A stretch of DNA of 8,658 bases from Thermoproteota archaeon (lineage in GTDB: Archaea > Korarchaeota > Korarchaeia > B14-G2): assembly GCA_003661385.1 (NCBI GenBank), contig QMWA01000062.1, positions 1 to 8,658 on the forward strand. Reading direction: 5' to 3'. The translations under genes were made by a program, and so were the position numbers. The notes below the pieces were generated by a model that had not been told where the DNA came from, ran no database searches, and saw only the letters and a program-made list of their open reading frames with translations. Each line of letters starts with the position of its first letter. Position 1 is the stretch's first letter. Positions 2 to 4,562 of this stretch are shown here, one piece after another.

Positions 2-1126
2 TACAGAATATCTGGGCTTCCAGTTGTGGAAAATGGGAAGCTCGTCGGGATCATAACTAGGAGAGACACAATTGGAGCAAGGCACACAGATCACGTCAGG
101 AGCGTGATGACACCGAGAGAGAAGCTAACAGTCATGTTTGAGGATGAAGTAGGAGAAGAGCTTGACGTGGATGCTGCACTAGAGAGAATGTACTCTAGCA
201 GGGTAGAGAAGCTGCCTGTAGTCGACAGGGAGTGGAGGCTCACTGGGCTCATAACCCTAAAGGACCTGCTGAGGATGAGAGAAGGCCAGGAGTCTAGCAG
301 AGACGATGAGGGAAGGCTTAGAGTAGGAGCAGCAATACCAGCACCACTCACACCACTCCAAGAGGAGAGAGTGCTCAAGCTGGATGAAGCTGGATGTGAC
401 CTGCTTGCGCTCGATGTAGCCCACGCCCAGAACAGAAACGTGATAAAGGCTATTGAAAAGGTGAGCAAGAAGGTTAGCAGCTGGATCCTCTTCGGTAATA
501 TAGCTACAGCAGAGGCAGCAGAGGAGGTACTAGGCTCAAGCGAGATAGAAAGCCTAGCAGGGTTTAGAGTCGGGCTTGGAGGAGGCTCCATATGCACGAC
601 AACCGTAGTCACAGGGGTAGGAGTACCAACGCTGACTGCAACAGCCCTGGTAGCAGATGTCGTGAGGGAGAAGCTTGGAGACAAGTACTCTGTTGTAAGC
701 GACGGAGGGATAAGAGGGCCAGGAGACGCCATAAAGGCCCTTGCAGCAGGAGCTTCAGCTGTGATGATGGGCTCTGTGTTCGCTGGCGCAGAGGAAGCTC
801 CAGGAGACAAGGTGTTCATAAGAGGAGTACCGTACAAAAAGTATAGGGGAATGGCCTCCCCCTCAGCCTTAAGAGGAAGGTACGCAGCAGACAGGTACAG
901 CTCCACAGTGAAGAGGGTCCCTGAGGGGATAGAAGGCTATGTCCCATACAGAGGGAGTGTATCATCCATAGTAAGGGAGTTTAAGCTTGCAATCCAAGCT
1001 GGAATGGGCTACATTGGGGCAGCTGACATAAGGCAGCTATGGGCTAAGAGCAGGTTCGTGCTCAGAAGCCAAGCTGGAATGCAGGAAGCCAAGCCGCATA
1101 CAGTGATCTCAGGTGATGACCTCTGA
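2..1126 (+). CDS. guaB: Inosine-5'-monophosphate dehydrogenase, 3' part (5' end outside window)
   Basis: Oxidises IMP to XMP with NAD+, the committed step to GMP, in the cytoplasm. The frame is open from base 2 and no start is visible. About 374 residues are present against roughly 480-490 for the family, so the N-terminal ~110 (start of the barrel and most of the first CBS motif) lie outside. Counting from base 2: end of CBS 1 at residues 1-25 (GLPVVENGKLVGIITRRD), CBS 2 at about 38-92 (EKLPVVD, GLIT), then the rest of the catalytic TIM barrel. The loop GGGSICTTT carries the catalytic Cys at residue 198. SDGGIRGPGD and MMGSVFAG bind the IMP phosphate. The mobile flap has the Arg-Tyr pair (DRY, residues 297-299), followed by PEGIEGYVPYRG. 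The segment DVAHAQN replaces the usual D(T/S)AHG, and Thr follows SICTT where Arg is usual. It overlaps guaA by 4 nt. GMP reductase is excluded by the CBS pair and flap. Confidence 0.96.
   Translation, partial: YRISGLPVVENGKLVGIITRRDTIGARHTDHVRSVMTPREKLTVMFEDEVGEELDVDAALERMYSSRVEKLPVVDREWRLTGLITLKDLLRMREGQESSRDDEGRLRVGAAIPAPLTPLQEERVLKLDEAGCDLLALDVAHAQNRNVIKAIEKVSKKVSSWILFGNIATAEAAEEVLGSSEIESLAGFRVGLGGGSICTTTVVTGVGVPTLTATALVADVVREKLGDKYSVVSDGGIRGPGDAIKALAAGASAVMMGSVFAGAEEAPGDKVFIRGVPYKKYRGMASPSALRGRYAADRYSSTVKRVPEGIEGYVPYRGSVSSIVREFKLAIQAGMGYIGAADIRQLWAKSRFVLRSQAGMQEAKPHTVISGDDL
1111..1126 (+). promoter_or_regulatory. Shine-Dalgarno site and CTGA stop-start overlap for guaA
   Basis: AGGTGAT at 1111-1117 matches the archaeal 16S 3' end and lies 5 nt before CTG at 1123. 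That CTG overlaps the guaB stop TGA (1124-1126) as CTGA, in the same geometry as the common ATGA coupling overlap. This is the best-placed ribosome site for guaA and is the main reason for choosing a CTG start. Confidence 0.7.
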
Positions 1127-2646
1127 AGGAGTATGTAGCAGTAGTAGACCTCGGAGGCCAGTACACCCACCTGATAGCAAGGAAGGTAAGAGAGCTAGGC
1201 GTGTACAGCGAGGTCATCCCAGCTAGCAGAGCACGCGATGCCATGGAAGACCCAGCAGCTAAAGGCATCATACTCTCAGGGAGCTACAGGAGCGTCAGAA
1301 GTGAAAGCAGAGACTGGAGCATACTAAAGGAGGCTAAGAAGCCTGTTCTCGGAATATGCTACGGCCACCAGCTCATAGCCCACGTGCTAGGCGGAGAAGT
1401 CCAGGAGGGAGTTGGAGAATATGGTAGAGTAGAGTGCAGGATAGCTAGGAGGACAAAGCTGCTGGCAGGCGTCAGAAGAAGAACTGTAGTCTGGATGAGC
1501 CACAGAGATCATGTCACCAGGACACCAGACGGCTTCACAGTAGACGCGTGCACAAGAAGCTGCAAGGTAGCTGCCATGAGCTGTGAGAAACTCCAAATAT
1601 ACGGGGTCCAGTTCCACCCCGAGGTGCACCATACAAGAGAAGGCAGGAAAATCCTGAAGAACTTCTTATTCAGAGTATGCAGGTGCAGTGGAGGCTGGAA
1701 GCCAGAAGACACCATAGACCATAGAGTAAGGCAGATAAAGCTCACAGTAGGAGGTGAGAGAGCGCTTTGCGCAGTGAGTGGTGGAGTAGACTCGACTACA
1801 GCAGCGCTGATAGCTAGAAGAGCGATAGGAGACAACCTAAGGTGCATCTTGATAGACCACGGGCTAATGAGAAAAGGAGAGCGTGAAAGCATACTGAAGT
1901 CCCTCAGCAGCCTCTTAGGTGGGATAAAGGTCGTAGAGGCACAGAGCAGGTTTCTGGGCAGACTGAAGGGAGTAGCAGATCCAGAGGAGAAGAGGAGGGT
2001 GATAGGAGAGGAGTATGCGAAAGTCCTGCAGGAAGCTGCTGACGAGGAGGGGTGCAGCTTCCTGATACAAGGCACGATATACCCTGACAGAGTGGAGAGT
2101 GGAAGAGGCCAGGCATCAGAGGCAAGCAGGATAAAAACCCACCATAACGTCGGTGGGCTGCCAAGCTGGCTGAAGCTGAAGGTAGTAGAGCCACTAGCAG
2201 ACCTTTACAAGGACGAGGTCCGGAAGATAGCTGCTAAGATAGGCGTGCCAAGCGAGATAATATGGAGACATCCATTCCCAGGTCCAGGGCTAGCTGTGAG
2301 GGTAATTGGCGAAGTGACACCAGAGAAACTACACGTATGCAGAGAGGCATCGCATATAGTTGAGGAGGAGCTAAAGAAGGCCAAGCTATACAGGAAAGTC
2401 TGGCAGGCATTCGCAGTAGTAGGCGATGACAAGGCAACAGGAGTAAAAGGAGACAAAAGAGCACTCGGCTACATAGTAACAGTCAGAGTAGTCACATCAG
2501 TAGATGGCATGACAGCAGACTGGGCTAAGCTGCCCCACAGTCTGCTAGATAGGATAAGCAGCAGAATAACAGGAGAAATTCAGCAGGTAACCTGGGTCAC
2601 CTATGCAATCACAACAAAGCCACCAGCTACAATAGAACCAGTTTAA
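1123..2646 (+). CDS. guaA: GMP synthetase (glutamine-hydrolysing), single chain, probable CTG start
   Basis: Converts XMP to GMP using ATP and ammonia released from glutamine. From CTG at 1123 the protein is 507 residues, full length for the fused enzyme. The N-terminal class I glutamine amidotransferase begins VVDLGGQYTHLIARKVRELG (about residues 7-26), with nucleophile Cys79 in GICYGHQ and His165/Glu167 in QFHPEV. The ATP-pyrophosphatase domain has the P-loop SGGVDS (219-224), LIDHGLMRKGE, QGTIYPD, KTHHNVGG and PFPGPGLAVRV. The C-terminal XMP/dimerisation part has SVDGMTADWAKLP and ends KPPATIEPV. The first ATG/GTG/TTG in frame is GTG at 1201, which would delete the invariant GGQYTHLI strand. 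Between the in-frame stop at 1117 and 1201 the only plausible starts are CTG codons, and 1123 has the Shine-Dalgarno site. Many Euryarchaeota split this enzyme into two genes, so the fused form fits a TACK archaeon. It is co-transcribed with guaB. Confidence 0.95.
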   Translation: MKEYVAVVDLGGQYTHLIARKVRELGVYSEVIPASRARDAMEDPAAKGIILSGSYRSVRSESRDWSILKEAKKPVLGICYGHQLIAHVLGGEVQEGVGEYGRVECRIARRTKLLAGVRRRTVVWMSHRDHVTRTPDGFTVDACTRSCKVAAMSCEKLQIYGVQFHPEVHHTREGRKILKNFLFRVCRCSGGWKPEDTIDHRVRQIKLTVGGERALCAVSGGVDSTTAALIARRAIGDNLRCILIDHGLMRKGERESILKSLSSLLGGIKVVEAQSRFLGRLKGVADPEEKRRVIGEEYAKVLQEAADEEGCSFLIQGTIYPDRVESGRGQASEASRIKTHHNVGGLPSWLKLKVVEPLADLYKDEVRKIAAKIGVPSEIIWRHPFPGPGLAVRVIGEVTPEKLHVCREASHIVEEELKKAKLYRKVWQAFAVVGDDKATGVKGDKRALGYIVTVRVVTSVDGMTADWAKLPHSLLDRISSRITGEIQQVTWVTYAITTKPPATIEPV

Positions 2647-2883: not shown

Positions 2884-3189
2884 ATGAGGAAAGTTGTTGT
2901 GCAGGTGAGGCTTCCTGCAAAGCTTGTGGAAATGTTAGATAAGCTAGCAGACGAAGGCTATTACAGCAACAGAACTGAGGCTATAGCGGATGCTGTAAGA
3001 AGACTGGTTGAAAAGTACTCTGGTGGTGGGAGAATAGCCAAGGTTGTGAGACTTTACCAGCTGGGTATTAAGGCTAAACCTGTAAGCATAGAGGTCAACC
3101 CACAGGAGGTAAGGAAAGCTCTAAGCGATAGATTTGGGACAGATAATGTAGATGAAATAATGGCGATAATAAGGAGGAGATCCAGATGA
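2884..3189 (+). CDS. vapB: Ribbon-helix-helix antitoxin, VapB type
   Basis: Antitoxin of a type II pair. It should neutralise the PIN toxin encoded next and bind its own promoter as a dimer. The 101 residues start with a CopG/RHH fold: strand VVVQVRLP (about 4-11), helix A PAKLVEMLDKLADE, the turn GYYSNRTEAI (25-34) with the typical N-R-x-E, and helix B to about residue 45. A Gly-rich hinge (GGG, 47-49) separates a C-terminal half that should wrap the toxin (VSIEVNPQEVRKAL and a basic end RRRSR). The length is usual for archaeal RHH antitoxins with a toxin-binding tail. The start is ATG at 2884, with a TATA box at leaderless distance. The stop overlaps the toxin start as ATGA. The exact antitoxin subfamily cannot be fixed by eye. 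Confidence 0.88.
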   Translation: MRKVVVQVRLPAKLVEMLDKLADEGYYSNRTEAIADAVRRLVEKYSGGGRIAKVVRLYQLGIKAKPVSIEVNPQEVRKALSDRFGTDNVDEIMAIIRRRSR

Positions 3190-3620
3190 TCTTTGTAGAT
3201 ACAGATGTGCTGGCAATCCATCACATTTTCACATGGGATAAGCGGAGAGAGGCCAATGAGAAGGCAGTAGCCTACCTGAAGGCTAGAGGAGCAGCTATCA
3301 CAATCCATAATCTACTAGAGTTGTGTGGGCTATATGGAGCAGCTAACATGGGGGATAAAGTGGAAGCGGTCATTGAAAGGTACTTAAGTGGTGTAGAGTT
3401 CGAGGTGAAGTTCCCTCCAGTCATAGAGGACTGGGGGAGGTATGTTGAGACCATGGCAGAGTATGTGAGGAGAGGACTTTCCTATAGTGACGCGCTTATA
3501 GCATTCTGTGTGGAGGCAGCTGGAGGAGAGCTGTTTATCACGTGGAATAAAAGGCATTTTGATGGCAGGCTTAGAGCTAGAGTGCTTACACCAGTAGAGT
3601 ACTTGGGGGAGCACCGTTAG
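3186..3620 (+). CDS. vapC: PIN-domain ribonuclease toxin, VapC type
   Basis: Mg2+-dependent endoribonuclease toxin. VapC family members cut RNAs such as tRNAs or rRNA, but the target here is unknown. The 144 residues form one PIN domain: FVDTDVL gives Asp5 and Asp7, LLELCGL gives Glu45, and SYSDALIAF gives Asp102. The last motif, usually TxDxxF, reads TWNKRHF with Asn121 where the fourth acid often lies. The sequence ends LTPVEYL, a common PIN end (the 'tP.efL' strand-helix). Three core acids are intact, so activity is expected. The 4-nt ATGA overlap with vapB implies coupled translation. Its TAG (3618-3620) directly abuts the mch stop on the other strand. Confidence 0.9.
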   Translation: MIFVDTDVLAIHHIFTWDKRREANEKAVAYLKARGAAITIHNLLELCGLYGAANMGDKVEAVIERYLSGVEFEVKFPPVIEDWGRYVETMAEYVRRGLSYSDALIAFCVEAAGGELFITWNKRHFDGRLRARVLTPVEYLGEHR

Positions 3621-4562
3621 CTATGCTGTAAATGACTTCATGAGAAGCTGTGGGTTTATCTCTCCAGCCGAATATGTTTTTCCTGTCATGATGTCGTTTA
3701 CGACTATCTTAGCTGGAGCGAATAGGCCTTTATCTATCTTGTAGAAGTCGAAGCCAGCTTCCTTGAATATCTCGTAGAAGGGCTTCCCATAGCTTGGAGA
3801 AGCTGAGGCTGGAGCCTTTGGAACAATATCCTCTAGCTTGTCTCCCCCCTTAACTACTAGGTACACTGCTCCCCCTAGCATCAGAGCGTCATTTGTCCTG
3901 CCCATCTGGACTGCGCTATCTGGGTGTAGTGGTGCTATTGGAGCGGAGCCGCAGCCGTATAGTATGGAGTTTGGGTTTAAGCCTAGGTCTACAAGCTTGT
4001 GGATTCCTGTCTCCACTATTCTCCCTGCTATCTGGGTTGAGCCTGCTAAGCTGCTTGTAGGAGCAACTACTATGTGGAGGTTTCTAGATGGCACTCCTAG
4101 ATCCCTGGCTATCTTCTCAACAACGCTCTCTGGTGGGAGCTTGTCTGCTTCAAGCTGCAGCACAGCTACCTCAGGAGGCTCAGAGTAGTTTAGCAGCTTG
4201 TAGATCCACTTTGGCTTCCTTACTATAGCTCTAGCTGGGCCTGAACCCATTGCAAAGTAGCCATTGTGGGATATCTTCCAGCCAGCGAACTGTGAAGCTA
4301 GCGTCGACACTGCTGGGTAGTCTGTGGTAACATAGACACAAGGCAGGTACAGCCCTCCTACATTCATTGGAGCTAAAGAAGCCCTTCCGAGGCCTCCTAG
4401 GCATATTTCAGTGATGATAAGGCCAGCTTCAGTGCTTCCCTCACACTCCACGCCAGCATCGACTACAGTAGCCTCAGCAATCCTTTGGACTGCAACCTTC
4501 AGCTCACTAGCTTCATCTATCAGCCTATCAAACAGCTTGAGAGCACGCTTGTTCATGTCCAT
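3621..4562 (-). CDS. mch: N5,N10-methenyltetrahydromethanopterin cyclohydrolase
   Basis: Interconverts methenyl-H4MPT+ and N5-formyl-H4MPT, the cyclohydrolase step of archaeal one-carbon metabolism (methanogenesis, the Wood-Ljungdahl methyl branch, or formyl/formaldehyde oxidation). The 313-residue length is standard. Family signatures along the whole length: TEAGLIITEICLGGLG (44-59), TTDYPAVSTLASQFAGW (79-95), YFAMGSGPARA (102-112), VAPTSSLAGSTQIAGRIVETG (166-186, with the conserved Arg181/Glu184), GSAPIAPLHPD (205-215), MGRTNDALMLGGAVYL (220-235), and YGKPFYEIF with FAPAKIVVNDIMTGKTYSAGEIN (258-303). ATG at 4562 follows GGTG (4571-4568) by 5 nt; ATG at 4556 is a possible second start. No other C1-pathway gene is in the window, so the direction of flow cannot be told. 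It shares its promoter region with gltX. Confidence 0.97.
   Translation of the reverse strand: MDMNKRALKLFDRLIDEASELKVAVQRIAEATVVDAGVECEGSTEAGLIITEICLGGLGRASLAPMNVGGLYLPCVYVTTDYPAVSTLASQFAGWKISHNGYFAMGSGPARAIVRKPKWIYKLLNYSEPPEVAVLQLEADKLPPESVVEKIARDLGVPSRNLHIVVAPTSSLAGSTQIAGRIVETGIHKLVDLGLNPNSILYGCGSAPIAPLHPDSAVQMGRTNDALMLGGAVYLVVKGGDKLEDIVPKAPASASPSYGKPFYEIFKEAGFDFYKIDKGLFAPAKIVVNDIMTGKTYSAGEINPQLLMKSFTA

Follow-up and report, generated by a model that had tools for sequence, protein, structure and literature searches.

Which codon begins guaA when its frame is closed on the upstream side and offers no ordinary start ahead of the conserved amino terminus? The question arises at the guaB–guaA junction of a stretch of archaeal DNA of 8,658 nucleotides (the window), a contig (C62) from a draft genome that comprises 206 contigs and 1.74 Mb, is 91% complete and is the sole member of its own family and genus among the class genomes compared. 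From the layout of the junction, homology and a survey of the same genome, we conclude that guaA is very probably translated from the CTG at position 1123, by Shine–Dalgarno (SD)-assisted reinitiation after termination of guaB.

Layout of the guaB–guaA junction

The upstream gene matches the IMP dehydrogenase profiles PF00478 (E 1e-81) and TIGR01302 (E 8e-93). The guaA frame that overlaps its end reads TGA (1114) TGA (1117) CCT (1120) CTG (1123) AAG GAG TAT GTA GCA GTA GTA GAC CTC GGA GGC CAG TAC, and CTG 1123–1125 is its only NTG codon between the paired stops and GTG 1201 (Table 1). The initial annotation had described a CTGA overlap with the guaB stop, a frame without ordinary starts and an SD motif 5 nt ahead of the CTG, and each element is found as described: CTG 1123 and TGA 1124–1126 form the 4-nt overlap base for base, no ATG, GTG or TTG is read in frame before GTG 1201, 26 codons past the CTG, and AGGTGAT is located at 1111–1117. 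The motif thus lies inside the upstream gene, ahead of the downstream start, the arrangement of an NTGA pair.

Table 1. Features of the guaB–guaA junction (window coordinates) and strict CTG-start candidates at other loci of the same genome
Feature	Location	Strand	Remarks
guaB (IMP dehydrogenase)	2..1126	+	5' end lost at contig end; stop TGA 1124–1126
Shine–Dalgarno AGGTGAT	1111..1117	+	within guaB; spacer GACCT to CTG; 7-nt match to AGGAGGTGATC
Two TGA stops in guaA frame	1114..1119	+	close guaA frame upstream
Proposed guaA start CTG	1123..1125	+	forms CTGA with guaB stop
guaA, glutamine-hydrolysing GMP synthase	1123..2646	+	507 aa counted from CTG
GTG, first ordinary in-frame start	1201..1203	+	would drop 26 residues; weak SD
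Ribosomal protein L30e	L127:1722-2054	-	apparent CTG start in CTGA overlap with upstream gene; SD GGTGA
KorA-like 2-oxoacid:ferredoxin oxidoreductase alpha subunit	L157:11844-12995	+	apparent CTG start directly after in-frame TAG of ferredoxin-like gene; SD GAGGTG
Alpha/beta hydrolase	L168:1784-2596	-	apparent CTG start directly after in-frame TGA; GGAGGTGA; first GTG = residue 27

In the source genome, matches to GGAGGTGATC ahead of first ordinary starts are most frequent at registers 2–5, at that many nucleotides from the start codon. At register 4 their frequency is 0.084 before first ordinary starts and 0.006 before internal ATG, a 14-fold difference. CTG 1123 carries its 7-nt match in precisely this register, GTG 1201 shows a match of 3 nt across registers 2–5, and ATG 1116, which belongs to a different frame, shows one of 6 nt at register 7. 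Matches of at least 7 nt in register precede 10 of the 3190 codons that stand before a first ordinary start; three of those ten are CTG.

The amino terminus of GuaA and competing starts

Counted from the CTG, GuaA scores 656.7 bits against the GMP synthase model NF000848 (PRK00074; cut-off 400) over residues 5–505, beginning at profile position 1, and among solved GMP synthases its best match spans residues 4–505. Full-length matches to solved GMP synthases nearly all begin at residues 3–5, a few plasmodial-type chains giving a later best stretch only. The protein thus covers the full-length family model and holds a complete class-I amidotransferase domain, including its amino-terminal part: the PF00117 GATase match runs over profile positions 2–189 with 136.6 bits. 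It has the usual order of a single-chain GuaA (GATase, ATP-pyrophosphatase region, GMP_synt_C) and is 55–57% identical to its closest relatives; against other single-chain enzymes, only its start codon is unusual.

Homologues place their own starts at or near the CTG. In the closest same-class GuaA (L003, 55% identity) the ATG aligns on CTG 1123 (MVEGILVLDYGGQYCHLIARR against LKEYVAVVDLGGQYTHLIARK). The remaining homologues examined from the class begin at the CTG column or a few residues away. Among 84,980 species genomes, a set from which records of the source genome itself may be excluded, the closest homologue is 57% identical. The nearest homologues overall, at 55–57% identity, carry ATG or GTG starts.

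A start at GTG 1201, the first ordinary start codon and the output of a default gene caller, would yield a protein without the first 26 residues, of which EYVAVVDLGGQYTHLIAR is an example peptide. That loss falls on the amidotransferase domain present in homologues: as the initial annotation anticipated, the conserved amino terminus is encoded upstream of the GTG, and calling the ordinary start clips the PF00117 match to profile positions 25–189 (111.5 bits). The 26 codons ahead of the GTG moreover show coding composition (log-odds about +10), and in the favoured registers its SD is limited to 3 nt, making this start very improbable. No ATG, GTG or TTG alternative is compatible with the conserved amino terminus.

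Two further readings dispense with the CTG by other means. The overlapping frames stand in a -1 relation and the two enzymes are functionally linked, as would suit a -1 frameshift at CTC TGA that fuses GuaB to GuaA and needs no guaA start; yet GAC CTC TGA holds no slippery heptamer, the positioned SD marks initiation, and homologues begin guaA on a codon of their own, so that we regard a fusion as exceedingly improbable. The other reading is a one-base insertion error or a real frameshift early in guaA. Because the guaB carboxy terminus aligns flush with that of a homologue (L048) and needs no correction, such a frame error would be confined to the 11 bases from 1127 to 1137. With one base fewer there, ATG 1116 comes into frame with the conserved amino terminus, giving a protein that begins MTSE... 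and an 11-nt overlap with guaB, and the 6-nt SD match of this ATG falls in a register where SD matches show a weak excess across the genome (0.022 against 0.008). However, the genome supports register 4 far more strongly than register 7, the interval contains no homopolymer of more than 2 bases, and an indel at this one site would not account for the CTG starts at other genes; we consider it improbable. We prefer initiation at CTG 1123, coupled to guaB termination, because no other reading accommodates the closed frame, the place of the SD and the homologous amino terminus unless an error is assumed.

Probable CTG starts elsewhere in the genome

Besides guaA, at least three genes of the same genome appear, from their sequence context, to start at CTG (Table 1). 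For ribosomal protein L30e, the match to model NF002172 begins at residue 6, alignments with most same-class homologues begin at residues 3–8, and the first ordinary ATG is residue 12. The KorA-like subunit matches NF006412 from residue 9 and its best homologue from residue 3, the first ATG being residue 46. Four less strict cases, an FtsX-like protein (CTGA), a ribbon-helix-helix (RHH)-like protein with AGGAGGTG, an aldehyde:ferredoxin oxidoreductase with GAGGTGA and an M3 peptidase, are probably CTG-started as well. Most of the candidates lie at or adjoin an upstream stop, consistent with reinitiation by ribosomes that have just terminated there. A candidate on contig C102 was dropped, as a GTG further on fits better, and CTGs adjoining an ATG (contigs C80 and C9) were excluded from the obligate CTG starts.

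In connection with the TAG that precedes the KorA-like CTG, we considered a tRNA-Pyl called by ARAGORN on contig C18 (L142, 5150-5243, minus strand); its anticodon loop CTTCTAA reads by eye as tRNA-Arg(TCT), with a D-arm insertion, and a profile search gave no match to PylS above cut-off.

A survey of 109 contigs (1.31 Mb) of the same genome examined, in coding frames, the codons that precede the first ATG, GTG or TTG and are followed by a coding score of zero or more; a site was counted where such a codon has an SD of 6 nt or longer in registers 2–5. CTG makes up 6 of the 34 sites so led, against 100 of the 3190 codons overall (Fisher p = 0.0005), a statistic that rests on few sites. With the SD threshold lowered to 5 nt, it makes up 13 of 148 sites (p = 0.0006). 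SD hits at codons other than NTG mostly reflect chance or a single SD viewed from the neighbouring codon. Near predicted starts, the SD-led codons above internal background number 73 for TTG, 56 for ATG, 21 for GTG and 11 for CTG, the last figure including some CTGs beside an ordinary start. At NTGA junctions with an SD of at least 5 nt we count 12 ATGA, 6 GTGA, 17 TTGA and 6 CTGA, one of the six being CTGATG, in which the ATG may be the start.

These counts bear on whether base 1123 is misassembled or a minority variant, the true codon being ATG, GTG or TTG. The sequence is a draft metagenome-assembled genome, homologues have ATG, and the SD and its position would suit any NTG codon. Such an explanation would nevertheless require like errors at L30e, the KorA-like gene, the hydrolase and other sites, all of them CTG with an SD in register, and the CTG excess remains significant when guaA is left out (p = 0.003). 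Since CTG with an SD recurs at independent sites in the same genome, a sequencing error at guaA is unlikely, and we judge a wrong base at 1123 decidedly improbable.

Applied to 0.4 Mb of a same-class relative (G002), a sample much smaller than the 1.31 Mb of the survey, the survey test gave no CTG excess (0 of 5 sites). Among 185 genes with a homologue in that 0.4 Mb, amino-terminal homology revealed no further obligate CTG start, from which we take CTG starts to be a small minority. TTG is the commonest strongly SD-led start in the 109 contigs of the source genome, and ATG leads in the G002 sample.

Proposed coupled initiation and its relation to known starts

How might a ribosome come to start on this CTG? 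Ribosomes terminating guaB at TGA 1124–1126 would stand on the overlapping CTGA, where base pairs between AGGTGAT and the 16S rRNA 3' end could hold them; a restart on the CTG with initiator Met-tRNA would then give a GuaA with methionine as its first residue, beginning MKEYVAVVDLGGQYTHLIAR.... The source genome encodes aIF1 (SUI1), and no initiator tRNA was identified in its analysed part.

The arrangement resembles ATGA pairs with an intragenic SD, a setting in which bacteria and archaea are known to reinitiate (Huber et al. 2019, PMC6728339): such pairs share with guaB–guaA a 4-nt stop/start overlap, an SD within the upstream gene and functionally linked enzymes. The pairs of that study start with ATG, whereas guaA would start with CTG, and its coupling to guaB is predicted from the gene layout. 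AUG, GUG and UUG are the start codons named in a review of initiation in archaea, which leaves CUG out (PMC7531240). NCBI table 11 includes near-cognate CTG starts; the guaA CTG, with its strong SD, would be of that kind. Prodigal ignores CTG as a start (PMC2848648), and callers of this type would consequently leave core proteins clipped at the amino terminus: GuaA by 26 residues, the KorA-like subunit by 45 and L30e by 11.

The initial annotation had called CTG starts rare in archaea, a statement that matches general knowledge but sits less well with the source genome, which seems to use CTG recurrently (L30e, KorA-like, hydrolase). In most studied organisms CTG starts are isolated and weak, whereas here at least four clear cases occur in one archaeal draft genome, several of them at stop/start junctions. 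Initiation at CTG is already known, and rare; what is new is its recurrence in one archaeal genome in which TTG is the commonest SD-led start. A literature search, with most subscription journals outside its scope, turned up no archaeon described as using CTG starts recurrently, a weak negative.

We are evenly divided on a further proposal: that CTG serves this lineage, which forms a separate family, as a minor but regular fourth start codon. It would account for several per cent of the starts with a strong SD, frequently where a stop and a start meet, and would include those of the housekeeping genes guaA and rpl30e. If correct, the proposal would point to start-codon checking that is relaxed and favours TTG too. 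A lineage with recurrent CTG starts would offer a natural test of how archaeal ribosomes select start codons, and of whether the choice becomes less strict when initiation is coupled to an upstream stop.

Beyond guaA, the plus strand of the window carries at 2884–3620 an RHH-like protein (weak CdrS/NikR match) and then, across a 4-nt ATGA overlap, a 144-aa protein with no family match; by its look the pair is possibly a PIN-type toxin–antitoxin system. The minus strand encodes, at 3621–4562, a methenyl-tetrahydromethanopterin cyclohydrolase (mch) that scores well above cut-off.
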